A DNA stretch of 64,000 bases from Bolinopsis microptera. Its lineage: Eukaryota > Ctenophora > Tentaculata > Lobata > Bolinopsidae. The stretch covers positions 16,697,837 to 16,761,836 of the forward strand of contig NC_087073.1 of the NCBI RefSeq assembly GCF_026151205.1, in the 5' to 3' direction. Under the pieces are notes generated by a model, which searched no databases, had not been told where the DNA came from, and saw only the letters and a list, made by a program, of their open reading frames with translations. How positions within the stretch are numbered: the first letter of the stretch is position 1; each line of letters opens with the position of its first letter. Of this stretch, positions 4,201 to 39,000 are shown piece by piece. The position numbers were made by a program, and so were the translations under genes.

Positions 4201-7200
4201 CCAAATTAGAGGCGTTGATAGGAAGGCATTATAATTTGTGGGTGTAAGAGGGAATATTTGGCATGCATTATTCTAGCAGCTATTTTGTAACAAATGGTCT
4301 TTACGATTATTAAGGACGGTAAGTATTTTGGGTGTTCAATACTAAATCATGGCTAAATGTCTAAGTGGGGGTTTAAATTTAAGGCCCAGCTCAAGATTTA
4401 TGCGAGATTGCGAGCCGGACTCATCGCACAAAATTTGAAAATAAATGAGGAAACAGAAAAAGTTTAACTTAAAAGTTGAGGTAATTAGGAACTTAACATG
4501 TATTTTATACTCTTAACGTGTATTTTATCACTTGTTTATAGCGTGAAAACTTCGACGTAACGCGCGCGAGATTTTTGCCAGATTTTTGCGAGTTTCGTTT
4601 AAATCTCATAGCTAGGCTCACGATATCGTGAGATTCTCCGCGAGATTTCGGCACCCTCTTTCAGCACTACATATTCGGTCGCGCGCTTGCATTTTCATCG
4701 CTTTTCAGCGTGTTTATTCACTGTACTGTCTAAGTCTTAAAGGATACTAGTTGTTATAAGATCAAGATTCACAGTGGTTACTATAGTTACCATGGTTACC
4801 ATTAAAGGAGGTACTATTCCTGGCTACAGTCTACTCAATCTTTCTCAGAATATACTTGATACTGCCATAGGCATAGTGAATTAAAAGTTTGAGAAAGGGT
4901 CTCTTCAACTGGAGAACTGACTTATTAATCCTAGCAGGTAATTAACTCTGGATCCTCATCACATTGATTCCATTCTAAATTCTAGCCATAAACAAAACAA
5001 ACATTACCAGATAACTCCGTTTACAATAATTTGACATGTTCCAGTGTGAACGAGGCCTTCCCCGGACAAATCCTTAAATGCCAGTCTTCTCTTGATCTTA
5101 GTTCTCTAGATGAAGTACGAACAGTATAATCTATCGGATAACGTATATAACAAGGTGCTCTGATGATAATTTTAGTAAAATAATTAATAATTGCCAAAAG
5201 AATGACCGCTGAAGAGACTCGAACCCGAGTCAACTGCTTGGCGAGCGCGCCCTAAACCATCGGGCTACGTGAGGCTTACCATAATTACAATATGTAACAT
5301 AATATAATTCATAAAAATACGCACGTAAATTTTTCGTTATTTATGGATCCAATTACAGTGACATACTTTTCGCTTACAAAGGGACTCGCAAAATCTTTTA
5401 AATAGAAAATAATTAGTGGGGCAAGAAATCTTGCAGGCTGGAGGGGGGGGGGGGGGGTGGGGAGTACATTTCGCCACTGCACGTGACACGTGAAAATCGC
5501 ACTTCTACTGTCAAAATCCAATCTCATCGCACTTTTTTTAGAATCTTGATAGGGGATTTAAGGGAGAAAAAGAAATGAATATTGGGTTATAATATTAATC
5601 ATAGATGTCAACCCTGATATAACTATTGTACTAAAAATTTGATCATAATGCTTAAGGTCTTTATTAGAATTCAAAGTGGATACAAAAATAGGATCTCTTT
5701 ACACTACACTTACTCACTCACACATCACATTTAACTTGACAGAGGAATACGCTGGCAGAGTAAGTCGATTTGGTCATGAAATTTTGGAGGTCAGGTGGAA
5801 TCCCTGCAGGAGCCTACGAAAATTTAAGGATACAAATATCAAAGTCTTTATTTGTCCAGTCATACACGGCATGACAATGCTGGTTGGAAAGTAGTGAAGA
5901 TTTCAGTTTGGATTTCAGGCAAGAAATACTAACAGAACAATCAAAGATTTTAAGGTTAGGGGTTATTATATTCCATATTTTCGTTGACCTCGTGTTATGG
6001 TTGTCTGGGGGATCCGGTTTATTGATAATAAGCATTGGTTTCCTGGAAGAACGAGAATACTCTTCGTACATAGACATAGGAGTAGAAAACTTCATGATCT
6101 TGAATAATTCTATGTAGCTATGGTAAGTATAAAGATTTTGTACAGTGAGTATCTCGTTGTTTTTAAACAGAGGTTTAGTGTGCTCCTTTTTATAAAATTT
6201 ACTATCAAGTTTCTGGTCAGTAAATGGTCTGGTTCGAACACACGTTTTGAATTTATCCAGGTAGGCTGCTCTATCACCAAACAAGACCCTCAGACAGTAC
6301 TTCTGTGCAGTGAATATTGAGCTTATACGATTTTTAGCTGCCCCACCCCATGCTGATATGCAGTACGACAGATGGGATTCAAAAAGAGTGTAGTATAACT
6401 GTCTGTGGAGAAATTCTGGGAGGGAGCAGCGTAGACGACACAGAGTTGAGGTGGCATGGTTAAGCTTTCGTTTTAGGGCTATTATATGTTCTTCCCATGT
6501 TAGATTTTCGTCAATGATGACTCCTAAAAATCTAGCTGACGTTACTCTTTTGATGGGGTAGTTGTCTATATTCATTATGAATTCTTCTTCAACGTTTGCT
6601 TCAGTACGTGACTTAGGTCTAAAGTGAATGTAGCAGCATTTTGACATGTTTATGTGAAGCTTGTTAGCCCGCATGTATGTTTGAAGGTTTGAAAGTAGGG
6701 CGTTGCTGCGTTCATATGCTTCTTGTGCAGTTTTACCAACAACAAATATGTTGGTGTCATCCGCAAAGGTGACAAACGATCCCAAGCTAGAGCTATTAGA
6801 GATATCATTTATGTAAAGTAGGAATAAAAGGGGTCCGAGAATTGACCCCTGGGGAACCCCAAATTTTATTGGAAGTAGGTCGGACTTTTCTCCTACAACA
6901 TCAGTGTACTGAAATCGATTAGTTAGGTAGCTCTTGATCAGATCGTTTGCCACGCCACGGATGCCATACCTTTCTAGTTTGGTAAGTAATGTTGAGTGAT
7001 CTATAGTATCGAAAGCTTTGCTGAGGTCGATGAATATGCCTAACACATGGTGCTTCAATTTGATGTGCTTAGATATGAGGTCAACAGAGTAGTTTACTGC
7101 ATGGGAGGTTGAGTGCGATTGCCTGAAACCAAACTGAGTCTTAGATATTATTCCCTGAGAGCTGACAAACGAATAAATCCTAGAATATATGATTTTCTTT

Positions 7201-10200
7201 TAATATTTTGCCAAATATGGACAAGGTGGATATAGGACGGTAGTTTTCTATTTCTTCTGGATTACCTTTTTTGAAGACGGGTGTGATTCTGCCAGTCTTA
7301 AGTATATCAGGGAATATACCATTTGACATAAGTTTGTTTAAGTATCTGCTGATAATTGGTGCAATAACGTGGGACGAAGTTTTAATAACGGTTATGGGAA
7401 TATCACTGGCCTTTCCATTCTCGAATTCTTTGATTATTCTTAGAACCTCCTCAGGAGTGCTGTCCTCTACCATAATAGATCGAGAGTTACTAGGGCTAAG
7501 GAAGTCATGGAATGTTTTCATGGGGAGAATTGGAATACCAGAAGACAAGTCAGTTGTGATAGTTTCATTGAGCTTGGGAGCAATTGATACGAACCAGGAA
7601 TTAAAACCATTGGCAATTGCTCTCCGGTTCAAGATTCTTTCATTATTGATGATGAAAGGTGGTTTGGTTGTTTTCTTTCTTTTGCCCCTAAGCTCATTTA
7701 TTATCTGCCAAGTTTTCTTACTGCTTTCAATGTTTTTATAGATTTCGTTACAGTAATAGGAGCGTTTGGCTGCCTTTATGATACCCTTAAGCATCCTACG
7801 ATAGTCACTAAATATCTTATAAAGAAGGACATTGCCAGATGGATCTTTATTTGTTACTGTATCTGACCATTCTTTACAAAGCTCATGTTTTCTGTCGATT
7901 GAGAGGATGATTCCATCTGTAATCCAAGGATTAAGCTTTGGTGTTCTTTTGGTCGTTTTCGGTACTTCTAATTTACAGTGCTTGTCAAGGGTGGATTTGA
8001 AGCAATCGACAAATTCGCAAAAATCTGAAGATTGGGACAGCTGATTCACCTTCACCTCAAGGTCAGAAACAAAATTTTTAAGCTTGGCACTTGAGTAGTC
8101 GTAGTAGCGGACATGTTTTTCATTGTTCTTATTTCTTGGGGCCGGGGTTGAGGTGAAGGAGAATATGAACGTGTGTTCACTTAATCTATCCTGAAGTACA
8201 CCAGAGAGCAAAACATTATCAATATCACTAACTAGGATGTTATCTATACACGAGTTTTTACAATTAGGCCGGAAGTGGGTAGCAATTGAGATGGATGGAT
8301 ACAAACCATTACTAATTATAGTGTCTTCAAATAACTGGTTGTGTGACGAAACTTTGAAGAGGTCTGAGTTAAAGTCGCCAAGCAAACGAAAGGGCTTGCC
8401 GGATATCTGCTTAGCAATGGTTTGTAAAGTTTCACAAAAAGCCTTAAGGCAGCCACTAGGGGGACGGTATACAACTCCGTAGACAACCCCAACACCAGTG
8501 CTATCAGTGATTTCGGCGAATGAGCATTCAATGTTTACAGTACAGTAGGATAACTTTTCTAGGACAACAGTGTTAAGGTTGTCTGAGACATAAAGCGCAA
8601 CCCCAGTGCCCTCTTTCTTATCTGGGAGGGTATTTTGATAAAAACTGGTGTAAGATGGGATCTGGTATAATTCTTGTAAGCTACTACCAACGTTGGTTTC
8701 AGCAAGTGAGATAACCGTTTGAGTTCAACTTGGAATGTATCGAAATTACTGGCATTGCCATCAATGTTGAGGAACAGTGCTGAGAGGAAGGACCCATCAC
8801 CACTGCTGATTTTTGTAGCTACTTCTGTGAATTCACGTTTGGAATAACGTTTACAGCTCTCGAGGGTATGACAAAATTTTTGGATGAGGGTGTCTTCTGC
8901 ACCCTCATTGTAGGGCCTGTCCGACTTTTCGAGATCGTTTTGATTGTCAAAGGGGCAGTACCTATCCTCTGTGATAAGTGCACATTCTGGGCACATCCAT
9001 AGGCCATTCTTGCACTTAAAACTAGCAGATTTAAAACATCTAGTATAGATAACTTTGGTGCAGTTTTCACATTCAAGCATAGGTTGCCCAATATTAATCG
9101 ACTTACTGCACGGATAGCACACCTCCTTATTGATTTTCAAGTTCATTTTGATCAAGTGGGATCATATCACACTGTCTGACCAGGTTTCCTCTGTCTAGTT
9201 CTCTCAAGTTTCTCACGCACATACACCCAATGTTTAACACATCTCACAAACTTAGATAAACCGCGGTTGCCAAGATGTATCTCATTCCCATCTCTGGTAA
9301 AGTTCATGGCAAGCAGACCTTTGTTATCAACGAAGTGATAGACACCGATCTGCCACACGCTTTGCTCGAAGCTTGACTCAAGCATATCATAGACAAGTCT
9401 GTTGAACATGATGATGTTCATGTTCATGCGGGGAAATCGCGAAGGCAACACAGCGGTAACAAATATCTTAATACGAGGGCATATAGTCTGGATCTGTTGT
9501 AGCTTCAAGTGGAGAATATCCACGAGTTGATGAACATCGTTAGGAGATTTCAAGTTCGCAGGTTGCACACTATGTGAAAAACAATACACTTCTAGTGTGC
9601 GTGTGAATATGCTATTAACTTACATTGGGTGCTTACCCACCCTTTTCTAAAGAAATGAGACATCAAATTTGACGCTTCTATCGCAATTTTTCCTGTTAAT
9701 TGGTGTTTTCATGTGGCACATTTAATGAAAATAACAACCGATTCACCTGTCTGCCTGGGGACTGTCAGGTATCACATTAACTGAAACCGGCATGTCAACT
9801 GCTTCAGGGGCGGGTCTGAAAAACAACATTAATTTTAAGCAGTGTCAAAATTTCCTAGAAAACAGTCAACAATTACAACTAGCCCAAAAAAAAGAAATGA
9901 AATGGGGTTAGTTTTGCTTCATAGATTTTAAGAATTACAGCATATAGATAGTACGTATCAATTATTAATTTTTCGTGGTTGATGATCCATTCAAACGTGA
10001 GGAAGTACTTCCGGAAAAAGGGTAACCAAGGGTCATCTAAGACGTGTCAATCAAACCTTTTAGGATTCGGCGTGGATCCCTCTTTAGCTTTACCAGCTGA
10101 ACCGTAGATACATCTAGCAAAATAATTATGTCATATTTTTTTCTTTTCTTTGAAAAATTTTCATATTATTTGTATTCATTTGGTTATTGGTCTAATTAAC

Positions 10201-12199: not shown

Positions 12200-13800
12200 A
12201 GCTAATGATGGGAGGATAAAGGTTTGTCAATTATTGCATTGGATCCAGCCACGCCAGTAAAATTTGGCACGCCCGCACCATCATGCTGTGTGCTCCCACA
12301 TCAGCGTGAGAATTTGAAATCAAAATTTTTGGTAAGAAAAAATAAATTAAAAATCTAATTTCTGACAGCTAAAAATTTGATAACGCTACGTTTCCTGAAA
12401 ATGCTGCGCAGAATTTATCAATTAGGAACAAAGCCGGGAACAACTACATTAGATCCAGCACTATCATTTTAGGTCAGACATTTGCCTTTAAACTTTTATG
12501 GAATGCTATTTTACTTTGCGTAAATTTGGTTTTTTGTTAAATTTCTTAATTTTTTGAAGCTTGGACCCTCCCCTCCCTAAAACGAAAATTTAGTGGCCTA
12601 ATTGCTGTATCCGCCAAAATCAACGTTCATAAAATCATGGTGTTTTATAACATAGAACTCAAAAAATCAATTATCACTTCTGTATCCTTGTATCCTTGTA
12701 TCCTTGTATCCTTACATAATTCTTCAGGTGCGCACGTGAATGAGTTGTATGCATGGAGCTACCAGGAACTGCGGATCATCCACAAATTAGCTGGAATTCA
12801 GTTGACATTCAGAAGCTATCGTTTGAGTTAAGTTGTGAAACCTCTTTAAACTTGTTCATCAAAAAGAGAAATTGCCTTCTTCTTGATTCAAATCCCCCTT
12901 CAAAGCTTCTTTTTTTTTGGAATTTGCTTAAGAGGTATTTTTTACCATTTTTGTAATGAGATCCTCATTCTGTTGATAAATTGGTACCAATTTGCTTCCA
13001 TGCCGTTATTCCAGCTAAACGTGTAGAGCGTTTTAAACAACAACTGAAATCAACGTGGCACGACTAGAACAATCATTCTATGCTTAGAAGGTATATCTCA
13101 CCTTGTCTTGTAAGAATTCACTGAGTACTTCACAAATATGAAGTAGTTTATATTTACCAGAACGACCGATCATAACTTTGATAAATCGACAGTCATTGTA
13201 AAACAAGTAATAGACGTGACATTGCGTCACGACTTAAATATTGTTAAGTCATCGATACAAATACATTTCAATATAGCTAGGCTACCTTGGTGTTTTACTT
13301 ATTTCTTTTTGACACTTTAACTTAATATTTCAGATAATTCTAAATCATAGCAACTTTAGTAATAAGAACGTCGTAACTTATTCTCAAATACAAATTTATA
13401 ATGATGATTGGATCGCAGTATTTTTTTACATTTAAAATATTCAATTGCTGCAGATCAAGTTAAAGGAACCATCTCAAGTGATCGTCTCAATCGTTATCGT
13501 AATGTAAAGATCCCTCTCTCGACGGTGATTACGTCCTGTATCTAGTGTTCGATTAGGAAGTACAGAATCCTTACATCAGAAGAACAGAGAGCAACATTTC
13601 AGTAAGATTTATTTGTTACTTTAAATCATTGGTTTTTATCTTATCTAGTAATCAAATGTTCCGGTACATTCTTTTGAACTTTTTCTTAACGAACTTGGCG
13701 GGAATTTTGTTGGCGGGAAACAAGCATTCTAGTTTCTTCGCTCGTCAAAAGCGCGGCAATTTGTCAGTTAAAAGGCGGGATTTTGTCTGAAAGGCAGGAT
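12200..13800. other. Intergenic or 5' region of the host gene
   Basis: No supported gene. It holds a short tandem repeat tatccttg (about four copies, 12680-12713). An exon-like plus-strand frame follows acceptor cttcag at about 12727 (peptide GAHVNELYAWSYQELRIIHK), but I could not connect it to anything. Confidence 0.4.
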
Positions 13801-13913
13801 TTTGTCGGATGTTTATTACGCGTAAGGCGCGGAATGCTTTTTAATGACTATAAAACAAAGCGACGGCGCAGCGTTTTGTTGCAGCGTGTGATCTCGAATC
13901 TAGATGCTAGTCC

Positions 13914-15200
13914 ATGCAGATCCCTCAGGCACCACCCCCACCACCCTCTGATATGCCCTCCACGTATGGACAGCAGCATCATCCAAGAGCACCTCCATCA
14001 GTTCCAAGGATTGAAGTAAAGGATACCCCCCTTACTCATAATTTTAAATGCATAGAAGGGATAAAGGAAGATTTCTTAACTCCTGATGAAGAGATAGAGC
14101 TCACAGACTTTCTCAAAGCTGAGAGTTTCACTAAAGAAGGTAAGCATGCCACAATCCAGTATGGCCAACATTACCACTACATGGGTGCAAAATCGGAACC
14201 AAAGCCCATGCCCACCCTGATTGGCAACATCATGAAACGTCTTAACACTGAATTCTCCTCCACACACCCCCAGAAACAGTTCCACTATGACCTAAACTCC
14301 TGCCTGGTTAACAGGTATGCAGATGGGAATGAAGCACTTCCTGAACATTCAGACAACGAGGGAGACATTAATCGGGTGTCATCGATATTCACAGTTTCCT
14401 TAGGCTCATGTCGAACACTTAGCTTTCGTGAAACTTCTACAGATAAGATTACGGAGATAAAATGTCAGGGTAGAAGCATGTACCATATGACAAAAGCAAG
14501 CCAGGAGTTTTTTAAACACTCAATCAAGCCTGAAACGTCTGATGAAGTAGGAATGCGATATAGTCTAACCTTTCGCTCAATCCACTGGTCAAATTTTAAC
14601 TCCACAGTGCTTGTTGGAGATTCAAACTTTGGACAAATCAACTTTGGTACAGGTCGTGGAAAGATGGGACAAGCCACCCCTGGAGTTCGCCTCTGGGCAG
14701 CTACGGTTGAGGAGATCGATCCCTTGTCTTGTGTAGGTTACAGAAACGTTGTCATCATGGAAGGAACCAACAATTTAAAAGTAGATGGAACGGATGAGAG
14801 AGAGTTGTATACCAAGTATAAGAACAAAATCGCTCAGATTAGGAAATACAACCCACGTTGTAAACTGATAATCTGTCCTGTGCTGCCAACAAGGTCGCAT
14901 AAGATCAATCGAAAAGTTAATGTTTTTAACCAGTATTTGTACAACGATCTCAGTCAATCTAATCTTAAAGTTCTAATTGTTGATAGCTTTTTGACATTTC
15001 TAGATAAAAGCACCAACCTGCTTAAGAACAGTCTAGCTAAGTCTGATGTGAATGATATTCTTCATATTAATGGCAAGGGCGTTGGTGCACTAGTCAAGTT
15101 AATTAAGAACTGTATTTTTACATCCAAGGATCATAACAAGTTAGTAGGTAGTAGATTGTACAGCAACACACTAAGAGGAGGACCGCCAGATGCAGTCTGA
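13914..15200 (+). CDS. LINE ORF1: AlkB-like dioxygenase plus SGNH esterase
   Basis: 428 residues. Residues 1-35 are proline/histidine-rich. Residues about 40-225 look like an AlkB-family 2-oxoglutarate/Fe(II) dioxygenase: NRYADG at 133-138, the HxD metal pair H145/D147 (PEHSDNEGD), strand IFTVSLGSCRTLSFRE, distal H202 (FFKHSI), and RYSLTFR (R215 and R221) for 2-oxoglutarate and substrate binding. Residues about 230-410 are an SGNH hydrolase: block I VLVGDSNFG, block III IMEGTNNL, block V DILHINGKG with the Asp/His pair. In AlkB enzymes this fold oxidatively demethylates nucleic-acid bases. Acting on the element's own RNA or cDNA is inference. The start could lie slightly upstream. The stop TGA is followed at once by tataaATG of ORF2. 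Confidence 0.85.
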   Translation: MQIPQAPPPPPSDMPSTYGQQHHPRAPPSVPRIEVKDTPLTHNFKCIEGIKEDFLTPDEEIELTDFLKAESFTKEGKHATIQYGQHYHYMGAKSEPKPMPTLIGNIMKRLNTEFSSTHPQKQFHYDLNSCLVNRYADGNEALPEHSDNEGDINRVSSIFTVSLGSCRTLSFRETSTDKITEIKCQGRSMYHMTKASQEFFKHSIKPETSDEVGMRYSLTFRSIHWSNFNSTVLVGDSNFGQINFGTGRGKMGQATPGVRLWAATVEEIDPLSCVGYRNVVIMEGTNNLKVDGTDERELYTKYKNKIAQIRKYNPRCKLIICPVLPTRSHKINRKVNVFNQYLYNDLSQSNLKVLIVDSFLTFLDKSTNLLKNSLAKSDVNDILHINGKGVGALVKLIKNCIFTSKDHNKLVGSRLYSNTLRGGPPDAV

Positions 15201-15205
15201 TATAA

Positions 15206-18200
15206 ATGTTCAAGATTAACTCAACTAAGGAGAAATGCGGATGCTGTAGCAAAAACATTAATATTGGCCAAAGATTTCTTGAGTGCCAAAGTTGCCAAAA
15301 TATTATCCACAAAATTTGTTTCAAAACATCTGAATTCAAGCTGACTGATTCCATACTTCTCTGTAAAGTTTGCTCAAAAAGAGAAAACTTAATTTACAAC
15401 CCGTTTAAGGACCTTTGTACCACAAATGAGGATCTCTTCAAGGATAGCGAGAATGACAAATTTTACTCCGAAAATTGGTCTGAGGCTATTGGAAGTCTTC
15501 AGACTGCCTCCTCTATCTTGGACAAATGCAGCTATTATAGATTGAAATCCTTACACCAGCACACCCCTGAAAACTCTGGCTTAAAAACTTTATTTTACAA
15601 CATTGATGGTAATAAATCGAATTTCGACTTATTCCTCTCGGAACTTGCCACTCAAAAAACGAAATTTTCTATTCTAGCTTTAGCGGAAACAAATACAGAT
15701 GCTGAGAACTGTGATGTTTATGCACTTGATGGATATTCACACTTTTACGGAGATAAACTCAAAGGCAAAGCTAAAGGCTCAGGCGTGTGCTTGTATATTC
15801 ATGATTCCCTAAATGGAACAATTAATGACCAACTTTGCACAATCACACCAAATTTAGAAACCCTATATGTAACTATCAACCATGGAGATAGCAAACTCAA
15901 TGTTGGGGTGTTGTACAGATCTCCAAACGGAGACTCAGTCAAATTTGATGAAGAATACACACAATTAATGTCCAAATTTCCAAAAAATGCAAAAACTATA
16001 ACTCTTGGAGATTTCAACTACGATTTGCTTAAAAATCAGAGTAATAAAAAACAGGTTCAGAATTTCGAGAACACTATGCTCTCTTATGGTTACTTTCCTC
16101 TTATATCTCGTCCCACTCACTCAGTAAATGTAGGCCAAAGCTCCTGCATTGACAACATTTTTACTGATGAGATTGACTTGGTAACCCTCTCTGGAGTTAT
16201 TGAAGACACTTCTTCCCATCATAAACCAATCTTTGCTTTCTTTGACATCAGTCATTTAACTTTTAGGAAAACTTCCCCTAAGCCTAAGCAATTGCAAAGC
16301 TATGATTTCTCAAACCGAAATGTTGAACTACTAACAAAAAACTTGCTATCTAAGAAATGCATACTAACAAACAATGAAAATCCAATTGAATTTGACGAAT
16401 TTTTTGAAATTTTTAGCTCAGCTATTGACTCATGTTGTAAACTCGACAAACCCAAACTCACCAAACGAAATCCTATAAGTAATCCCTGGATATCCGACAG
16501 CATAATTGAAGCAATTGAAAAGAAAGGTCAGCTGTATGATAACTGGGTGAACTCAAAAAAGCTCCCTGACTTCAAGCCAGTTGGAGATCTGAAACTCCAC
16601 AAAATTTTTCGTGATTACAGACGCTGTCTTAAAAAGATAATAAAAAACCAAAAAGATACCTATAACTGTAACAAAATTCTTGAAAATTCTGATAGTTCTA
16701 AAAAGATGTGGGAAGTAATAAATGAGATAAGAGGGAAAAGGAAAAAAACCATCAAACCCCAATTTATGGTAGATGGAGTCCGTGTTGTTGAAAGACGGGT
16801 GATAGCCAACAAATTTAATGAGTACTTTGCCTCTATTGCCTCAAAAATGAATGAAAATACTCAAAATGGCCTTCTTTTAGAACCTCTTCCCTCTTTCCTC
16901 GAATTCATGCCACCAAAAACTCTCGATTCAATTTACTTCCATGACTGTAGTGAAGATGAAATTTCTGAGATTATAGCCAACTTGAAGAGTGGGAAAGCTA
17001 GCGACTTTCCCATAAGAGTAATCAAAAAACTATCGGGTATTCTTAGCCCAACTCTTGTTGTTCAATTTAATCGCCTAATATCTCAAGGGATATTTCCGTC
17101 AGTTCTGAAGCTTGGCAAAATAACCCCAATATACAAAAAAGATAACGAAGAACTGATTGAGAACTACAGGCCTGTTTCCACACTTCCAATTTTTGGTAAA
17201 ATTTTTGAAAAGATAATATACAAACGTCTTTACAGCTTCTTGGTTAGTCAAGGAATCCTTCACGACAGTCAATTCGGATTCCGAAAGAGTCACTCAACAT
17301 CACATGCACTTAACTACTCAGTTTTTCACATCCAAAAGGCCCTAAAGCAAGGTCTTCATGTTCTAGGAATTTTTATTGATCTAAGCAAGGCCTTTGACAC
17401 AATAGACCACACAATTTTGCTTGAGAAACTTGAAATATATGGGATTAGAGGAGTGCCACTTAAGTTACTGGAAAGTTACTTGTCGGACAGAGAGCAGTGT
17501 GTGTCCGTCCTGGGCGAAGTATCAGACAGACTTCCTGTTCTCTATGGCGTTCCACAGGGGAGCTGCCTTGGGCCTCTCCTGTTTTTAATATACATAAATG
17601 ACTTAACAAACTCTCAACTCGATAACACTAGCTATGTCCTATTTGCTGATGATACAAACATATTTGTAGTTGCCAAAACTAGAGCAGAGGCCTACAATAA
17701 TGCAAATAGGGTCCTACGATCAGTCCACGAGTACACATTGGCTAATAAATTACATGTTAACGCCAAGAAAAGTTGCTACATAGAATTCAATACAGCTAAA
17801 AGAAAACTTGATGATCAATCTTTATTAATCGAAAATAGACTTTACCTCAACGGCTTACCTCTCTCAAAGGTGCAGGAAACGAAATTCCTGGGAGTAATTG
17901 TCGACGAAGGCCTAACTTTCAATCCCTATAGAGACAAACTAGTTAGAAAACTCTCGTCCTGTTCTGGGAGGCTATACATGATTAAGGATAAAATTCCATC
18001 ATCTATCCATAAGGACCTGTACCACACACTTTTTGAAAGTCACCTATCTTATGGCATTACCGTTTGGGGAGGTGCAAGTAATAATAAACTTCAACCACTA
18101 TTTGTAGCCCAGAAAAAGTGTGTTCGTATCATGTTTGGTGACAAAAAAGCATACCTTGATAAATTTATGACATGTGCTAGGACTAGACCTATCAGTGAAC

Positions 18201-18607
18201 AGAAACTTACTAGCAAATTCTTTGAGAGAGAGCACACCAAGCCAATTTTTGCCCGTCAATCACTCATGACATTGCATAATTTATACGCGTATCACTGCTG
18301 CAATGAACTTTTTAAAGTCTTTAAATATCGAACACCAATTGCACTATTTGAACTTTTCTGTTTGTCTAAAAGACCCGGCAAAGAAACTCTTCTTATAACA
18401 ACCATGCCCTCAAACAGTTTCGTTTACAAATCTAGTTGCCTTTGGAATTCATTCCGTCAGATGTTGGCACTGAACGACCTTGAAATCACTCATGGTGTAT
18501 TCAAATCAAAGGTAAAAAAAGTCATTCTCTCGTCTCAGGGTAAAGGTGACAAGAATACCTGGGCCCCTTTGGCAAACTTTCTGAACTCAGGCAGCTTGAA
18601 CGACTAA
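15206..18607 (+). CDS. LINE ORF2: PHD-like finger, AP endonuclease, reverse transcriptase
   Basis: 1133 residues, uninterrupted. Residues about 8-58 form a PHD-like zinc finger (CGCCSKNINIG, CQSC, HKICF, CKVC). The apurinic-type endonuclease occupies about 130-365, with LAETNTD, VGVLYRSPNGD, LGDFNYDLL, SCIDNIF and SSHHKPIF. The reverse transcriptase core has motif A GIFIDLSKAFDTIDH, motif B YGVPQGSCLGPLLFL and motif C FADDTNIFV. The C-terminus has the usual LINE thumb and tail. It nicks the target and primes reverse transcription of the element RNA. The stop-5 nt-ATG spacing after ORF1 suggests termination-reinitiation. Confidence 0.95.
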   Translation: MFKINSTKEKCGCCSKNINIGQRFLECQSCQNIIHKICFKTSEFKLTDSILLCKVCSKRENLIYNPFKDLCTTNEDLFKDSENDKFYSENWSEAIGSLQTASSILDKCSYYRLKSLHQHTPENSGLKTLFYNIDGNKSNFDLFLSELATQKTKFSILALAETNTDAENCDVYALDGYSHFYGDKLKGKAKGSGVCLYIHDSLNGTINDQLCTITPNLETLYVTINHGDSKLNVGVLYRSPNGDSVKFDEEYTQLMSKFPKNAKTITLGDFNYDLLKNQSNKKQVQNFENTMLSYGYFPLISRPTHSVNVGQSSCIDNIFTDEIDLVTLSGVIEDTSSHHKPIFAFFDISHLTFRKTSPKPKQLQSYDFSNRNVELLTKNLLSKKCILTNNENPIEFDEFFEIFSSAIDSCCKLDKPKLTKRNPISNPWISDSIIEAIEKKGQLYDNWVNSKKLPDFKPVGDLKLHKIFRDYRRCLKKIIKNQKDTYNCNKILENSDSSKKMWEVINEIRGKRKKTIKPQFMVDGVRVVERRVIANKFNEYFASIASKMNENTQNGLLLEPLPSFLEFMPPKTLDSIYFHDCSEDEISEIIANLKSGKASDFPIRVIKKLSGILSPTLVVQFNRLISQGIFPSVLKLGKITPIYKKDNEELIENYRPVSTLPIFGKIFEKIIYKRLYSFLVSQGILHDSQFGFRKSHSTSHALNYSVFHIQKALKQGLHVLGIFIDLSKAFDTIDHTILLEKLEIYGIRGVPLKLLESYLSDREQCVSVLGEVSDRLPVLYGVPQGSCLGPLLFLIYINDLTNSQLDNTSYVLFADDTNIFVVAKTRAEAYNNANRVLRSVHEYTLANKLHVNAKKSCYIEFNTAKRKLDDQSLLIENRLYLNGLPLSKVQETKFLGVIVDEGLTFNPYRDKLVRKLSSCSGRLYMIKDKIPSSIHKDLYHTLFESHLSYGITVWGGASNNKLQPLFVAQKKCVRIMFGDKKAYLDKFMTCARTRPISEQKLTSKFFEREHTKPIFARQSLMTLHNLYAYHCCNELFKVFKYRTPIALFELFCLSKRPGKETLLITTMPSNSFVYKSSCLWNSFRQMLALNDLEITHGVFKSKVKKVILSSQGKGDKNTWAPLANFLNSGSLND

Positions 18608-19059
18608 ATTTGAAAAAAAAAAACTTCTTGTCTGAATGAACTATTAGAACCTCAAGAAGCTGATCCGCATGTCTCCGCTACTAAAATGTTTAATGAGCCC
18701 AATCACTCATCACTTAACAGTTTAATCTTCAAAGTGAGTTGTACAATCTAGGTTGTTTTAAGTAGCTGTTGATAGTGTAAAACAGGAGTGACTTGATCGT
18801 TTTCATAACTTCGATTTACAATTTGTACCATAATAAAACTAGCACTGCCATGGGGTTCAAAAAGGGTCATTGTAAGCCTCCAGCGTAATGGTCCTAAGTC
18901 TCTGCCCCATGCAGTGCCTGTCAGCATCAGCTAACAGAATAGCCCTAACATTTAACGATCAAGCCACAAATTAGGTTCTATAATGATTTAATATTGTTGA
19001 ATAAAGAGATTTGAATATAATATTTGTTTTATTCTGAAATATTTGTTTTATTCTAGATC

Positions 19060-19215
19060 ATAAGGCCTGGATTCCAGACTGGAATCAAGACTGGAATCCA
19101 GATGACAGGTCTGGAAACAAGACTGGAAACCAGATGATATTTTTGACAGGGTACCAGCTCTTTCACTGAAGTCATCAGCCCTTTCACTGAAGTCATCAGC
19201 CCTTTCACTAAAGAT
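19060..19215. repeat. Short tandem repeats
   Basis: Imperfect repeats of the type (g)actggaatcca/gactggaaacca at 19075-19135, then three copies of a cctttcactgaagtcatcag unit at about 19155-19210. Confidence 0.75.
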
Positions 19216-24565: not shown

Positions 24566-27347
24566 TCATTGCAAATTCCGCCAATATCTCTTGTCATAAC
24601 TCAAATTACGGAGATAATGCAGGTCAAAGATATTATTCAAATAAAGATTTCTTTTACATAAATCATGCACAATCAGCGAGAATAGATTGCTTTGGGGTCT
24701 TCCTCTTCTCCCTGGGAAGTCCAGTGTATTGATGGCAAAAATGATGGAAGAAAACGCTGGTCCGTCAATAGGACCCCGCAAAACATGTCCTAACATTCTC
24801 CACCGACTACGGGCCACTTTGTCTGACAATGGTTCAGCATTGCAGCGTTTATACAAGTTTTTGTTGGAGATGACTCCTGGGTACTTTATATTCAAAATAG
24901 TGCGAAGATGTCTGCGGTGAACAACATCTAGTTTTTCAAGGAATATTTTGGGGACGGCCCAACAGGATGAGTTGTACATAAGAACCGATACGACTAAAGC
25001 ATTATACAGTACTAGCAGGAACCCGTATAATATAACCCTAAACGGTGTCAAGACTCAAAATACTAAAATAATTATTACCTATTTAATTGGCGTTTTTGAC
25101 ACCACTTGGGGGTCCAAATTTTAGGCTCTAAAATCATTATTCCTTGGCCAATTTTTTATTTTTTCATGCTGATTTGAAGGCCATTAAAGCATTTGACCCA
25201 GCCAAAAAAGTTCCAGTTGTATATCTTTTACGGTTTTTGCGGAAAGTCGCGTTAAAGTTGATGCTGTGGTGTCAGTAAAATGGCACAGATATATATATAT
25301 ATATCGTCTCGCTTTATATGTAGTAAGATTAGACGTTTGTTTAGGGGCAGTTTATCACTCCAGGCCTTCTTGTAATTGTTGAAGGCAGCATATCCCAGGT
25401 TTATGCGACGCTGAATATCAGCTTTGCTACACAAGACGGACCCTAGAGTGATACTTTTCCTCCATGCTTCATTCCCCGACACTAATTTTCCATCACTGTC
25501 GACTTCACCCGTACTAGCTAAATAAACATGAGTGAAGTCCGTTTTGTCTTCATTGACAAAGAGGTTCCATTTCTCGAGTATAGCTGTTGCCTGGGGCAAA
25601 ATAGCTCTCAAGTTGTCTTCCTCTTCATCATTGAAGTCAACATCATCAGCATATTCAGTGTCAAGTGGAAGGCCAGCAATAGTAATCGGGGGGATCGGCC
25701 TATCTAAACTGATTGTTATAGTCCATTCAAAGCACCAGCCAAGACAAGGGTGAACAGACAGCCGGATAGACAGTCACCTTGGAAAGCTCCAAGGAGACTT
25801 AAAAACTCAGCTGAAAGAACTCCATTTACCTTCACCCGTAGCTTTGTGTTGGACAACAACAACCGGACAATCCTCAGCTCATCCTCCTAAGTACAGCCAC
25901 ACAGTTTCAGGAGTTCAAGAATCGTAGTGCGTTTGATCGTGTCAAACGCACTAGACATATCAATGTCCATGCGATGATACTCCCATTTCTTCCTTTGGAC
26001 AACTGACAGTAGAACTCGCTGACACCAAACAATATCAGCACAAGAACGAGCGCGTTTATATGCACACTGCCATGGACCAGTGAAGGCGTTCACTTTTTCT
26101 TCTATCCTTTTAAGAGTAGCCATAGACAGAATTTTTCTGGCTGCATTGGACAAGGTGAGTGGACGTAAATTCTTCAGGGGACCAATAGGTTTTTTAGGCT
26201 TCTGTAAGGGTGTTATAGTAGCCTCTCCAATGGAAATGGGGAAAGTATGTGTCTCGAAACAACTGTTTATGATTCCAGCATAATGTTCATGGACTGTACT
26301 ATTAGAGTACTTAATAAGCTCGTTGGGTATTCCATCGGGACCATTTGCCCTCCCATTTTTCAAGCTAGAGGTGGCTGCATGTAATTCAACTCCAGTAAAA
26401 GGGACATTGAGAGCACGTGGTAGACCCTCAAAAGGCTCGAGAGGTTGCTCATTGCGAGTCAGCTGTTTTTCGAGATAGTCTCTAACAACAGAAGCTTTCA
26501 TGTCGTCAGATGCAATCAAACAGCCATTTTCATCATGAACACCAATCGAGTTATTAGGTGGTTTACTTTTCTGAAGATGTCTTACTGCTTCAAACATTTT
26601 CCTTGAATCGTTTGTGTTAGTAATATCACTATAGGTCTGATCAGCTTGAGCAGACCTCACTTCAACTAATCTTTTCTGGATACTATTAGTGAGGTGGTTG
26701 ATGGATGACCTCAATGTAGTTCGATCAAGAGATTGATTATTGTTAAGTAGCTGTCGGAGATCGTGACGCTTTTCAACAAGCTCTTTGAGAGTGTCATCAC
26801 TGCTGTGATGTTTCAAGCGAGCTTTAGGTTTTGGGCCGATGGAAACATTGGCAGCATCACGAATATGAGACATAAGATTTTGAAGGTCGGCATTTGGATC
26901 GTTGCTGGTCACAAAATTTGAGAACTTGCCTTGAAGGGCCAAGTGATATTTATGTTGCATATCTTTGTTGCTTACAAGTTCTGATATATTATAAGAAGGA
27001 ACACGACGTTGTTTAGGTTTGAAACAAAGATGAATGTTGCTGAAATTGATGCGAGCAATGACAAGTCTATGATCTGAAAATGTTTTAGTACCAGCATAAG
27101 TTCTTGATTGAGTCAAAAGACACTTAGATCTATTTCGGCATAGTATGTAATCTATTTGAGAGTATACAGGCAGTGTCTTCTTACTGTACCGACCAGCCGA
27201 CCAATCCTTCCGCCAACCAGTAAATGATGTAATACGTCTGCTAGGTTGTATAAAACTAGTGTTCACAGCAAACAGATTATTTTCTGAGATAAAATCCAGT
27301 AATCTAGAACCATTTTCGTTCCTTACTCCCATTCCGTATTTCCCCAT
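24566..27347 (-). pseudogene. LINE polyprotein: endonuclease end and reverse transcriptase
   Basis: The main frame, 27347-25887, contains the endonuclease tail (SQIDYILCRNR, FSDHRLVIARI) and the start of the RT (MDIDMSSAFDTIKR). A stop or frame break follows. Motif B (QGDCLSGCLFT), a YADD motif C at about 25.63 kb and a fragment at 25611-25320 lie beyond it. The C-terminal tail (SVLMYNSSCWAVP, RWRMLGHVLRG) is at 25051-24566. It is not functional. Confidence 0.85.
25012..25310. repeat. Dispersed repeat splitting the LINE
   Basis: ctagcaggaacccgt through catttgacccagcc matches 61474-61645 in the same orientation, including cgtttttgacaccacttggg. It interrupts the LINE between the residues corresponding to RLILL and YNALVVSV. 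An (AT)n run follows at about 25288-25306. Confidence 0.8.
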
Positions 27348-33086: not shown

Positions 33087-36000
33087 CTAGAGTGGTTACT
33101 GTGTTACAAACTTGTGCTTTACTTTCTGACAAGTGATTTTACATATGTTGATTGTTGATCAGGTAATCGCTGTAACTTAGAAATGATGCTGCTATTTGAG
33201 GTGTATTAAAGATTGACGTTTCACAGTTCGTAAAACTGCAAATCTGTCGTGGTCAAAGAGGATGAGCAACGTGAATTGGCAAAAAAATACGATTTTATAT
33301 AAATACTACTTAGTCAGATTATCATAACTTGACAGTTATCTTCGTGTTATTTAAATGGTTTAGGCATTCTCACAACTCCGATACAACTGTCATATTATAT
33401 AATAAGTTCGACATGTCTTTGGTGGGATTCATAACTAACGTTTGATCAAATTCTGCTTTCCAGGCCAAATTTTGCTCCAAAGAAAGTGTGATAAAACATT
33501 AATCACATGCCTTCTCATGCGATATCAACATTTTCAAAACTCGGCAAGCCTTGTGTTTGAAAATGTCGATATAACCCTCGGCAAGCCTCGGGAAATATCG
33601 AAACTTTCGCTAACTCGGCAAGCCTCGTGCCGAGTTTTGAAAATGTTGATATCGCATGTGATAAATGTATAATAATAGATGAATTGAAACAGCATGATTT
33701 AATTCTCGGGAATGTTTTTAAGGCTTATCACAATAATTCCAGCCATAAAATTTGCGGTTAATGATGAAACGTTTAAAGTGCACGGTTTACCGCTAGACCC
33801 ATGCGATATTAAACCAAATTAATGAACCGTAATATTACAGTAGTATTATAATATAGACCTGATGATCAATCTCTCGTCTCCTCTCGTCCCTCTGTCTGGC
33901 TGTCCTCTCAGTCTGTCTGCCCGTTTCCTGGGCTAACAGTTCCATGTTATCTATCAGCTCCTCCCTCGCTCTCAGTGCTTCATCTTGTCGTGATCTCACT
34001 TCGTCTTGTTTCCGAGCGAGCTGGTCTACACGACCTGACAATTGTGTTGTTATATTATAGCACTGTAGAACCTCTACAGAGAGCGAAAACTGTTAAAGAG
34101 AGCTAGAGGTTCATATTATGTTCCCAATCTTTAATATCTGAAGCCTCTCAAATAAACTGCCAAGCCTCTCAATATACCCCACGTATTGCGTTGTGTTGAG
34201 ATGGAATAATTCTTTCACAAATTATCTAAAAATGGGCTAATTTGATAGAGGTTTTAGAGCAGAGAACTTCTTGTTCCAGGACTCCACCAAGTTGTTCGTT
34301 TCACAGTGCAATCTCTTTGAGTGGAAACAGTTGATCAGATCCCAGGATATTATCGCTCGTGACGTTGTGCGATGTGTCATGTGAGATCATGCTCTCGTTT
34401 AACCACAAAAGCACCCATGGTGATTTATGACGTGAGTCGAAGTTATGTGTCATGTGACTCGATTCGGTAGTTTGAGTAACATGACACAAGGGCCAAGCCT
34501 CTCAATATACGCCACGTATTGCGTTGTGTTGAGATAGAATAATTCGTTCACAAATATCTAAACATTAGGCATATCATATATAATATCATTTGTGAGCATT
34601 GACAAAATATTAAGTGTTGTTTAAATCTTTATCCCAATGCCCATGAGATATAGAGGAATTTGTTTCCCTTTGAATCGATCAAACTAGATGAATTGTTGTA
34701 AATACTGAGATCAAACTATCAATCTACAGGCTATCGTCAAACATGTTGCAAGGCGTCATCTTCAGTGACATAAGACCTAAAAATTGTAAAAAGTTACTAA
34801 AACCCAAAATTCCTTTAAAAATCTGAACACTCTTAAAACGGTTATAAAGTTAAAATTAAGATGTTAGGAGTAAGGGAAGGCCAAAAAGATTTACAGTGTT
34901 AATTCCCAAAGGTTTTAAAGTCTTGAGTAGTTGAATATATTTATGTTCACGGACTTCCAAAGTTTTAGGACTAGAATTATCAATAATTGACACATTACAA
35001 ATTTTGTTAAAATCTTCCCTTTGTCTAAAATCAGCAGAGGGAGGTGTTGGATAGGGTTAAGGAGAACATCAGGAAGGAAAGAGAGGTGCAGTTGGGTACG
35101 TTGGAGATGCAGTCCAGGTGGGGTAATTGGAGAGAGCTGGTGACAAGGACTGACATGAGCTGGCACACGCTCTTCAAGTATGGGGACTCATTAATCGGTT
35201 TTTTGCTTAGTGCTGTGTATGGCACGCTTGTTACACCAGCTTTAGCATCCAAGTGGAGCGAGGATGAGGATGGGATGTGCAAGCTGTGTGGTGACAAGTT
35301 GGGAACTGTGCAGCATATCCTGGCTGGTTGTCCTGTGGCACTAAGTCAAGGGAGATACCGATGGCGCCACGATAAGGTGCTTAAACAAATAGCAGACCAA
35401 GTTAAATTCCATTGTGAGCGGATAGTCAACAAGAGGAAGAGTTCTTGTGTCACTCGGAAAGCCATTGAGTTTGTTCCAGCAGGAGGGAGGTTTAAGGAGG
35501 TGAAGAGGTCGAAAGTCAGTGAGTTTGGGATTCTGAGTGGGGCCACTGATTGGATAGTATTAGCAGACCTGGATAAGCAGCTGAAATTCCCGTCGGATAT
35601 AGCAACGACCAGATTAAGACCAGATTTGGTTCTTTTCTCGAAAGCTTCCAAGAGAGTAATCTGGTGGGAGCTTACAGTACCGTCGGAAGAGAGAATAGCT
35701 GCATCCCATGAGCTGAAGCTTGATCGGTATAACAGTCTACAAGCGGAAATACAAGCTAATGGGTGGTCATGTTTCAGCTTTGCTGTTGAGGTTGGTGCTA
35801 GAGGTGTGGTCGCAGCAAGTTTGGAGTGTGCATCAAGGAAGATTGGTCTGACTGGGAGAGCCCTCAAGAAGTTGGTCAGAGCTTGTGGGAAGGATGCAGC
35901 CCATTGTTCAAGATGGATTTATCTGCTGTCTAGGAAAAGAGAGTGGGAGATGAGAGCTGTTTGAGCTTTATGACTTCACCTAACAGCCAGAGGTGCCATA

Positions 36001-39000
36001 AGCTAACTCGTCGTAAATCGCGAGCTCTAGCAGGTATCCTCGGGTGATTGTCAGATCAGATGGTGGTCCAAGAGAGACTGCTGGGGCACCTGACAGAAAA
36101 CCGTATCGCAATGAAAGCCCCGAAACGGTGTCAGGTTTGTGACTGAAGATTCTGATCAAGCTCAGGGTTGAGTCTACACAGTGTCGCCACTTGCCGATGC
36201 CAGTTGACGCGAGAAGACACTGATGTAAGTGGGAAGTTATGTCTAAGAAACAGCGTGTGGTTCGGGTGCCGGTTGAACGCATGTAAAAGGGAGGGTATAT
36301 CCGTATTTCGCTGCTAGTGATGCAGTCCTTGGCCCGGTAGCTAAGGCTTCCCCGTTTCTCGCTCATTTGTGCTCCGATGGGCTTGTGACCTCTGCGGGGG
36401 TCAAGTGCAGGATGAGGGACATGGCCGACCAGGAGAAGGTTGTTTTTGGGAGATAGACTAGGGTTGGTTTGGTGTTGTGCCTTCGCAGTTTAACTGTATC
36501 TTTACCCTATGCTACTTTATGATACTGCTGGGATTGGCCAGCTACCGTGGGGTAAGGCCCACCTGATTTGAACAGATGCTACGCTTGGAATTGGCTTCTG
36601 GGTTGGGTTGAGATCCGTGCCTGCAGCGGTTACTGCAATAGAGAGGTGTGATGGGGTTTTAACGAGCGGAGACCTCAGTCCACATCGGTCCTGCGCCTCC
36701 TGCCTCTCTAAGGTTCCGGGAGTCCCTATTTAGGGACGAGTTGCCCGGGTGAAAAATAAAGGCTTTGTGGACACCCACCACGTCCTGCCACAAATCAGAA
36801 AAGGACTTATACAAACAGTCGAGAACTCTCGACCCCTGATTCTGATGTAGCAGAGGAGTTTAGCTGCGTGTGTGGTCGGCGCTTTACAACGGAAAGGGGT
36901 AGGAACATTCATCGAGGAAGGATGAAGTGCTCTTGGGAAGGGGAGCAACCGTTAGATGTTGCATCTGTAAGTTCGGTGGAGGTACCTGGCCAGGACGATA
37001 ACCAATTGCCCCCTTTTGTTCTGGTCCAGAGCATTAGCCAGGCAGCTTCCCGGTAATTCGAGCGGCTGGGTGGGTCCTGGGCGGGATTGGTGTGGGTTCG
37101 TGCTCCTCGTGGTATGGTCTGAGATCTGGGGGTTGGCACGGGGGTGCGGCGGGGATGGGTGAGTGGTGCTGGCTGGAGGGACGGTTACTATTCATACCGA
37201 CCAGCTTAAGCAAGTAAAGTTGTTTGCAGTCGGGACGGATGGGAACTTTGAATCGACAGTTAGCATTGCGATCCTGGCTCTTGTCAAACTCTCGGGCCTT
37301 GGACCCGTTTCTCGGGGCTAGCACGGGGGGTTTGGGCTCCCGCCTCTCGTCTGGGGGCTCCTGAACGCTTTAGAATTACTGGGATTATAAGTACGGCGGC
37401 GGAGTCAGTCCTGAGCACCAGAGCATTCGTGAAGACTCCGCCCACTTACTCTGATTTATCTGACTGTAATTCCTTTCAACCCACTTCTTGTTCGTGTCTT
37501 TCATTCTTGGATTGATTGGAACTGCAGCCTGGAGTCGGTTAAGTGACCTTGACGTGGTAAGGGGGCTTACTCGGCTTCACTCGACCTGCCGAAACTAAGC
37601 CGTACTGTCCAGCTGGGCATCACTGGACATAAGTCGCACGTGCACTTCTTTTGGCTATTTAACTCACCTGATCCTTCCTCCCTGAGCACTCACAGCTTTC
37701 ATTCACATTGAGCTATAGGGTTTTTGAAGTTTAGGGTGTGCGCTTCAGGTCGGGCCCTTAATGCCGATCATTAGCACCCATTTTCCCTGTTTTATTGGGC
37801 GGCATTTCAACACTGTCGTCGTAGTATTTCTCAGCATCTTTCTACGATTCGCAGAAAGTGTTAAAACTCACGATACACCCTCACTGATCAACCATTTGCT
37901 TTATAGATCGTGGATAGAGTGTGCTTCGGCAAACACGAATGTATGTGCACGGACTCTTGGGTCTGACTCATGCACTTTGTGCACCGTCCACGAACCCTAT
38001 AAAGTAATATACTGTAACAACACCAAAAACCAACCTTTACTACCAACAGTGGTGCCAACTGGAGGGACGGTCACTATCCATAACGACCAGCTTAAGCAAG
38101 TAAAGTTGTTTGCAGTCGGGCCGGATGGGGACTTTGAATCGACAGTTGGCATTGCGATCAGACCAACAACCTACTTTCAACCGACCACTTTTGACTCTCG
38201 GCAAGTCTCAATGGTCCAACCGACATACGACATTATTGTGTTAAAAGCTAAAAAAATCATATCTTCGCGCGGGTGCGCGCACCCACGTGAGAACATATGG
38301 TCACAAACAAAAGATAACAACAAACACAATTTCACACACAAACGTCTATTGAGCGGACTGTGGGAGCCATGTTCAGGGAAGGTCTGGCGGGGGCTGTTTG
38401 TCTGGAAGGGACCATGCGTACCTTCTGGAGGGCCAGCTGCTGCTACCCGACCCTGTCCAACTCCTCAGCGCCCCACCGGCAATGATAGGTCATAATACCT
38501 GTCTAGGGGGAGGGACGGCTTCCACTCCGCGCAATGACGCTCAAACTAGCACAAAAAAGAAGAGACGCCAAAAAAAGTTAAAAACTACTATTGCAGCACG
38601 CAATAAGCAGTCTGAAACTTACTCTGTCACCCAAATTAATCTCAAACGCAAGTTCAATGCATGGAAAACCCTCCTTATCAACACTCACGGCCGGAGAAAT
38701 CCAATCATTCTTGCAACAGAACCGTACTCTAATAACAAAAACCTAATACCACCCATCAATAAGGATCTCACCCAATATTACTACAAGGTCGGGGATAAAA
38801 GACCCCGTGCCGCTATTGTACTGCACAAAAACCTGACAGTAAAATGTTGGGAACTTACACAATTCACAACACCCGATCAAGTGGCCATTAAAATCCAACT
38901 CAGCTCGACAGAACTCATTCTGGCAGCTTCGTACATGGATATAAATGGGCCGGTACCGCCACAAGAAACATCACCTCTAGCAAAATACGCAAATGATAAC

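Follow-up and report, generated by a model that had tools for sequence, protein, structure and literature searches.

The window analysed here is a stretch of 64,000 nucleotides from the comb jelly Bolinopsis microptera (Ctenophora; contig NC_087073.1, forward-strand positions 16,697,837 to 16,761,836). It contains a long interspersed nuclear element (LINE) on the plus strand, and the first open reading frame (ORF1) of this LINE encodes an AlkB-type dioxygenase fused to an SGNH esterase, as judged from sequence. The ORF1 frame is uninterrupted over 428 codons, and its stop lies 5 nt before the start of ORF2. It contains the following features; the residue counts are from the family alignment described below.

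13914..15200 (+): ORF1, N-terminally incomplete, AlkB dioxygenase and SGNH esterase (428 aa, ATG-TGA frame)
14043..14606 (+): predicted AlkB 2-oxoglutarate (2OG)-Fe(II) domain, residues 44-231 (PF13532; ALKBH2/3 by profile and predicted fold)
14346..14360 (+): H145-S-D147-N-E149, comprising two Fe ligands and a Glu that aligns with ABH2 E175 (210/210 each)
14517..14519 (+): H202, third Fe ligand (211/212)
14556..14576 (+): R215...R221, 2OG-binding arginines, in RYSLTFR (212/212 each)
14607..15128 (+): SGNH esterase domain, residues 232-405, with GDSN, GTNN and DILH

The original prediction placed an H-S-D iron motif, a distal His and two arginines in AlkB order within one open frame, followed by the blocks of an SGNH hydrolase. 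H145-S-D147, H202, R215 and R221 are all present at those residues, and GDSN (235-238), GTNN (284-287) and DILH (381-384) follow them. The profile search agreed. PF13532 (2OG-FeII_Oxy_2) matched residues 72-221 with 67.6 bits against a cut-off of 31.2 (E 2.3e-18). Lipase_GDSL_2 matched residues 244-389 with 28.3 bits (E 2.9e-6), below its Pfam cut-off of 32.9. The combined AlkB and SGNH residue pattern is far beyond chance. By its sequence, the frame makes up the last two thirds of a LINE ORF1 protein in which AlkB precedes the esterase.

Completeness of the copy and its ORF2

The best database match was P0003, a near-identical 667-aa protein from B. microptera. Its residues 239-667 were identical to window positions 13911-15197 at 428 of 429 positions. 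Its residues 1-238 had no convincing match in the window (three weak matches, best E 0.19), and the start Met of the window frame corresponds to a Met inside the longer protein. The LINE had been described as intact, which does not hold for ORF1. An intact autonomous copy was rejected on account of the N-terminally incomplete ORF1, though ORF2 is open and encodes an endonuclease and a reverse transcriptase (RT). The copy may be 5'-truncated, or its 5' part may lie upstream of the window, set apart by an insertion or intron. A predicted intron in the P0003 gene model is possible because the match begins right after an AG.

The remaining features of the element are as follows.

15206..18607 (+): ORF2, 1133 aa, Cys-rich finger, endonuclease and RT (open frame, Pfam)
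15227..15385 (+): PHD-like Cys-rich finger at the ORF2 start (weak Pfam matches only, below cut-off: C1_1, E 0.02; PHD, E 0.056)
15596..16198 (+): apurinic-type (APE) endonuclease, residues 131-331 (PF03372, E 6e-5, 23.3 bits against a cut-off of 24.5)
17135..17902 (+): RT, residues 644-899 (PF00078 (RVT_1), E 2.3e-34; LINE-1 ORF2p, E 1.8e-14)
19021..19052 (+): short tandem repeat, unit of about 9 bp (TRF score 34)

The layout, with PHD-type fingers, an esterase ORF1 and an APE endonuclease, fits the CR1/L2 clade. The 3' end of the LINE is probably the repeat at 19021-19052. Just beyond it lie an array of 12-bp repeats (19067-19134) and, at 19155-19213, 2.8 copies of a 21-bp tandem repeat (94% match). 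TCTAGAT occurs at 13899 and 19052 and was a 7-bp candidate target-site duplication. Shared matches of at least 7 bp arose by chance in 133 of 2,000 shuffles and in 353 of 2,000 random stretch pairs, and the candidate was dropped because this frequency is too high. Just upstream of ORF1, 13660-13913 (+) contains GGCGGGA-like motifs, including a 19-bp tandem repeat at 13769-13806, and TATAAAA. It could be a promoter beside which the truncated LINE landed.

The ORF1 family and its active sites

Conservation was counted over 214 family sequences including that of the window, with gaps excluded from each count. The set contained P0001, 120 listed of 152 matches from a first search and 93 new sequences of 114 from a second. 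The AlkB ligands were H145 and D147 in 210/210, H202 in 211/212, and R215 and R221 in 212/212 each. The columns of H145, D147 and E149 were gapped in 4 of the 214 rows. Other AlkB residues were kept as strictly: E149 in 210/210, T219 in 212/212, N133 in 209/210, Y87 in 196/197 and Y89 in 197/197. Y135, another 2OG contact, was Tyr in 189 and Phe in 20 of 210. The esterase catalytic residues were S237 (211/211), N286 (209/209), D381 (198/200) and H384 (201/201). The majority residue averaged 56% in each domain, compared with 34% in residues 1-43, and positions conserved in at least 99% numbered 20 of 188 in AlkB and 15 of 173 in the esterase. Both catalytic residue sets are thus near-invariant across the family; homology searching may enrich such a set for working copies.

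H145, D147, E149, H202, R215, T219, R221, N133, Y87 and Y89 align with ABH2 H171, D173, E175, H236, R248, T252, R254, N159, Y122 and F124, whose functional roles are described in PMC12795828. The base-pocket equivalents of ABH2 Y122, F124 and E175 are kept as Y87, Y89 (Tyr, as in ALKBH3) and E149. The alignment also pairs family residues with ALKBH3 Y143, L177 and H191, and alanine mutants of these are nearly inactive (PMC10816986).

A structure-prediction check had been suggested for the AlkB region, and two outcomes had been named as refuting: a profile search without a dioxygenase, or a fold without a jelly-roll and clustered metal ligands. As far as the analysis reached, neither was seen. 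The predicted fold is a jelly-roll (double-stranded beta-helix) and aligns over about 172-174 residues with the crystal structures of ALKBH2 and ALKBH3, with about 21-25% identity to the human proteins. The family profile, compared with solved structures, placed ALKBH2 (6.7e-16) and ALKBH3 (5.8e-14) at the top, with 1.1e-15 for both in a second run. ALKBH8 (2.3e-9 in that second run) was next, then E. coli AlkB. ALKBH5 was absent among the sequence matches at E 0.01, which is still compatible with activity on N6-methyladenosine (m6A).

A FastTree phylogeny combined the AlkB domains of 195 family members with 76 other AlkBs and with fragments of human ALKBH2 and ALKBH3. The 76 were short AlkBs without the esterase motif, including P0182 (Glomus), and served as the outgroup. 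Left out were the 19 of 214 family rows that do not cover the AlkB domain, P0161, P0166, P0171, P0183 and P0229 (LINE-like pieces or cut), and P0123-P0158. All 195 family domains formed one group apart from the 76 others (support 0.986), the pattern expected from a single capture. Human ALKBH2 and ALKBH3 lay at distances of 4.31 and 4.46, about the median of the non-LINE set (4.31), and short AlkBs were nearest (3.70). The ALKBH3-type Tyr (Y143) was also present in 72 of the 76 non-LINE AlkBs. Both results weigh against simple descent from ALKBH3. "ALKBH3-like" therefore refers to the active site and to the solved structure that is nearest, and carries no claim of ancestry.

The full-length protein adds further modules. 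Within residues 1-238 of P0003, PHD_4 matched (E 4e-6) at 27.1 bits, short of its cut-off of 30.6. Of the 117 family members whose N-terminus is long, 110 had a PHD-type Cys/His pattern, and a slightly narrower pattern was present in 65 of 69 members of at least 580 aa. The predicted model of P0003 places helices at 179-215 and 221-239, between the PHD finger and AlkB, in a region absent from the window copy. The full ORF1 order is a disordered N-terminus, a PHD finger, predicted helices, AlkB and SGNH.

A search for other LINEs with the AlkB-esterase order had been suggested, and this order recurs in many related ORF1s. A third search for relatives listed 120 of 339 matches. Among the matches listed, 16 LINE-type relatives carried an organism name, 1 from Bolinopsis and 15 from Mnemiopsis leidyi. 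P0182 (Glomus), a further named match, is a short AlkB without an esterase. The host range may extend beyond comb jellies; no relative of P0003 was found in viral_contigs. Two Mnemiopsis models, P0321 and P0324, encode the C-terminal half of AlkB, then endonuclease, then RT, and BLAST places the esterase region between AlkB and the endonuclease/RT part. P0324 is 48% identical to the window ORF2 over residues 124-836. Three models have another order. The endonuclease precedes AlkB in P0259 (Mnemiopsis), RT pieces flank AlkB in P0251 (Mnemiopsis), and RT precedes AlkB in P0038. These are probably adjacent LINE copies merged by gene prediction, and the host annotations at the three are unreliable.

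Proposed function, alternatives and known systems

LINE ORF1 proteins package the RNA of their element, and bases methylated on the Watson-Crick face hinder reverse transcriptases. ALKBH3 acts on 1-methyladenosine (m1A), 3-methylcytosine (m3C) and 1-methylguanosine (m1G), mainly in single-stranded DNA or RNA (PMC10816986). In OTTR, which uses the RT of an R2 LINE, m1A hampered copying and AlkB relieved this, with a modest effect on full-length tRNAs (PMC12140624). A packaged enzyme that clears the template is therefore the most economical reading. The ORF1 protein would package the LINE RNA. Its AlkB would supply a structured nucleic-acid-binding domain that otherwise has no counterpart in published esterase ORF1 proteins; those in Repbase are described in PMC3905857 as lacking a structured RNA-binding domain. 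RT-blocking lesions or marks would be its substrate, and the packaged enzyme would clear Watson-Crick-face methylation from the template RNA or nascent cDNA, a scheme in which chemistry, substrate and benefit are all inferred. We tentatively propose, with a little less than even confidence, that the predicted ALKBH3-like demethylase in ORF1 of these comb-jelly-type LINEs acts on m1A and m3C in the RNA of the element itself or in its single-stranded cDNA, letting RT pass. With slightly lower confidence, we suggest that it is a built-in template cleaner that is packaged with the RNA by the ORF1 protein, erases m1A and m3C ahead of RT, and has long been needed by the whole comb-jelly LINE lineage. 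Such an enzyme would be a natural counterpart of the laboratory treatment of RNA with AlkB before reverse transcription. It had been suggested that the LINE uses AlkB against base methylation in its RNA or cDNA, for repair or as counter-defence. An active site of the ALKBH2/3 type, as predicted from sequence, would allow the repair or template-cleaning part; it agrees less well with counter-defence directed at m6A.

In that m6A version, AlkB would remove m6A or another regulatory mark from LINE or host RNA, and the element would escape decay or sequestration, much as proposed for an orchid Gypsy element. An AlkB captured independently by the orchid Ty3/Gypsy retroelement demethylates m6A RNA in vitro (PMC9289625). 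The nearest solved structures here are ALKBH2 and ALKBH3, and we regard the m6A version as rather unlikely. Action on DNA appears unlikely as well. The enzyme would either repair m3C or m1A while target-primed reverse transcription proceeds, in the single-stranded cDNA or in the target DNA, or erase a DNA mark at insertion sites that the PHD finger reads. ALKBH2 repairs DNA, DNA methyltransferases generate m3C as a side product and have co-evolved with it, and CG methylation occurs in genes of Mnemiopsis (PMC9246332). The PHD-type pattern of the long family members is in line with this action. Against it, ORF1 proteins are established as RNA-packaging proteins. The sequence alignment with ALKBH2 also begins just before loop L2, whereas that with ALKBH3 extends further upstream, so the duplex-probing hairpin of ALKBH2 (PMC12795828) has no evident counterpart in it; the range of the structural alignment does span the hairpin.

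AlkB could also be a purely structural, nucleic-acid-binding module of the ORF1 protein, with catalysis dispensable. Esterase ORF1 proteins otherwise contain no structured RNA-binding domain (PMC3905857), and the orchid H448A mutant kept RNA binding (PMC9289625). The Fe and 2OG ligands are, however, almost invariant in a domain whose majority residue averages 56%, and this use is improbable. An artefact, with an ALKBH gene of the host or a chimaeric assembly adjoining a LINE, is the least credible explanation by far. The window copy is N-terminally incomplete and is known as DNA from one copy. The AlkB-SGNH layout is nonetheless common to 214 diverse sequences, the Mnemiopsis models join it to endonuclease and RT, and the family AlkBs separate from all 76 others in the tree. 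We rejected the artefact on the recurrence in the family and the Mnemiopsis linkage.

Several known systems resemble this LINE in part. The orchid (Phalaenopsis) Ty3/Gypsy element likewise contains a captured AlkB-family domain with its cofactor residues kept (PMC9289625). It is a long terminal repeat element, its AlkB is a separate ALKBH5-like ORF2, and that AlkB was assayed on m6A RNA. The comb-jelly AlkB, in contrast, is in a LINE ORF1, is fused to an esterase, is nearest to ALKBH2/3 among solved structures, has many divergent members and is known from sequence. AlkBs of plant flexi- and closteroviruses also occur in genetic parasites with an RNA stage (cited in PMC9289625); they are viral proteins, not LINE ORF1, and are likened here by description only. 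Human ALKBH3 and ALKBH2 match the family in its predicted fold, Fe and 2OG ligands and base-pocket Tyr and Glu, but they are stand-alone repair enzymes and are not nearest to the family in the tree. DNA methyltransferases captured by retrotransposons are likewise acquired nucleic-acid methylation machinery (PMC5890265). They write 5-methylcytosine in other element types, whereas the LINE AlkB is a predicted eraser.

A weak match (E 0.0041) links the family profile to 4c1b, the structure of an esterase encoded by an ORF1, which we take to be the ZfL2-1 esterase. LINEs with esterase-type (type IV) ORF1, such as ZfL2-1, also contain an SGNH esterase at the ORF1 C-terminus (PMC3905857, PMC4120745). 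The published type IV ORF1 is a coiled coil plus esterase (PMC3905857), and its esterases have the transposon-specific residues H191 and S228 in ZfL2-1 numbering (PMC3905857). Table 1 of PMC4120745 contains no AlkB and has PHD and esterase only in separate CR1/L2 ORF1 subgroups. No report of AlkB in a LINE was found in an open-access library among the titles and opening lines of abstracts listed; Repbase Reports and subscription papers are outside this scope, and an earlier notice is possible. Passages of PMC8141815 contained nothing on AlkB in a LINE. Already known are AlkB in the orchid Ty3/Gypsy element and the esterase and PHD modules of CR1/L2 ORF1. We rate AlkB-SGNH as a new architecture of ORF1, retained throughout a diverse family of LINEs.

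Two near-invariant active sites in one ORF1 make it possible to test what LINE ORF1 proteins do and why some of them include an esterase. The family raises the questions of whether base methylation of LINE RNA or cDNA limits retrotransposition and whether an eraser is supplied by the elements themselves. With this family, AlkB capture would reach beyond plant RNA viruses and orchid Gypsy elements into animal LINEs. The esterase ORF1 class would also gain a structured nucleic-acid-binding domain, one missing from the published members surveyed in PMC3905857.

Other retroelements in the window

Retrotransposons are abundant in the window. At 5814-9540 (-) lies another LINE, broken but from the same broad group. 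Its RT and endonuclease parts are 40-50% identical to ORF2 and its finger region 36%. Its ORF1 remnant matches the esterase domain only, and no AlkB remnant was found in it with seven queries. A different LINE type, at 38398-42324 (+), has a frame of 1308 aa that encodes endonuclease, RT and RNase H domains. At 42498-45941 (+) a 726-aa RT frame is followed by a 416-aa frame, and 35044-35964 (+) contains, by eye, a nearly identical copy of the C-terminal part of the latter. The first of these sites looks like a LINE with its C-terminal part in a separate frame, and the second like a duplicate of that part. Two more RT fragments, alike by eye, lie at 25887-27347 (-) and 51282-52721 (+), with RVT_1 matches of 5.7e-8 and 7.9e-16.
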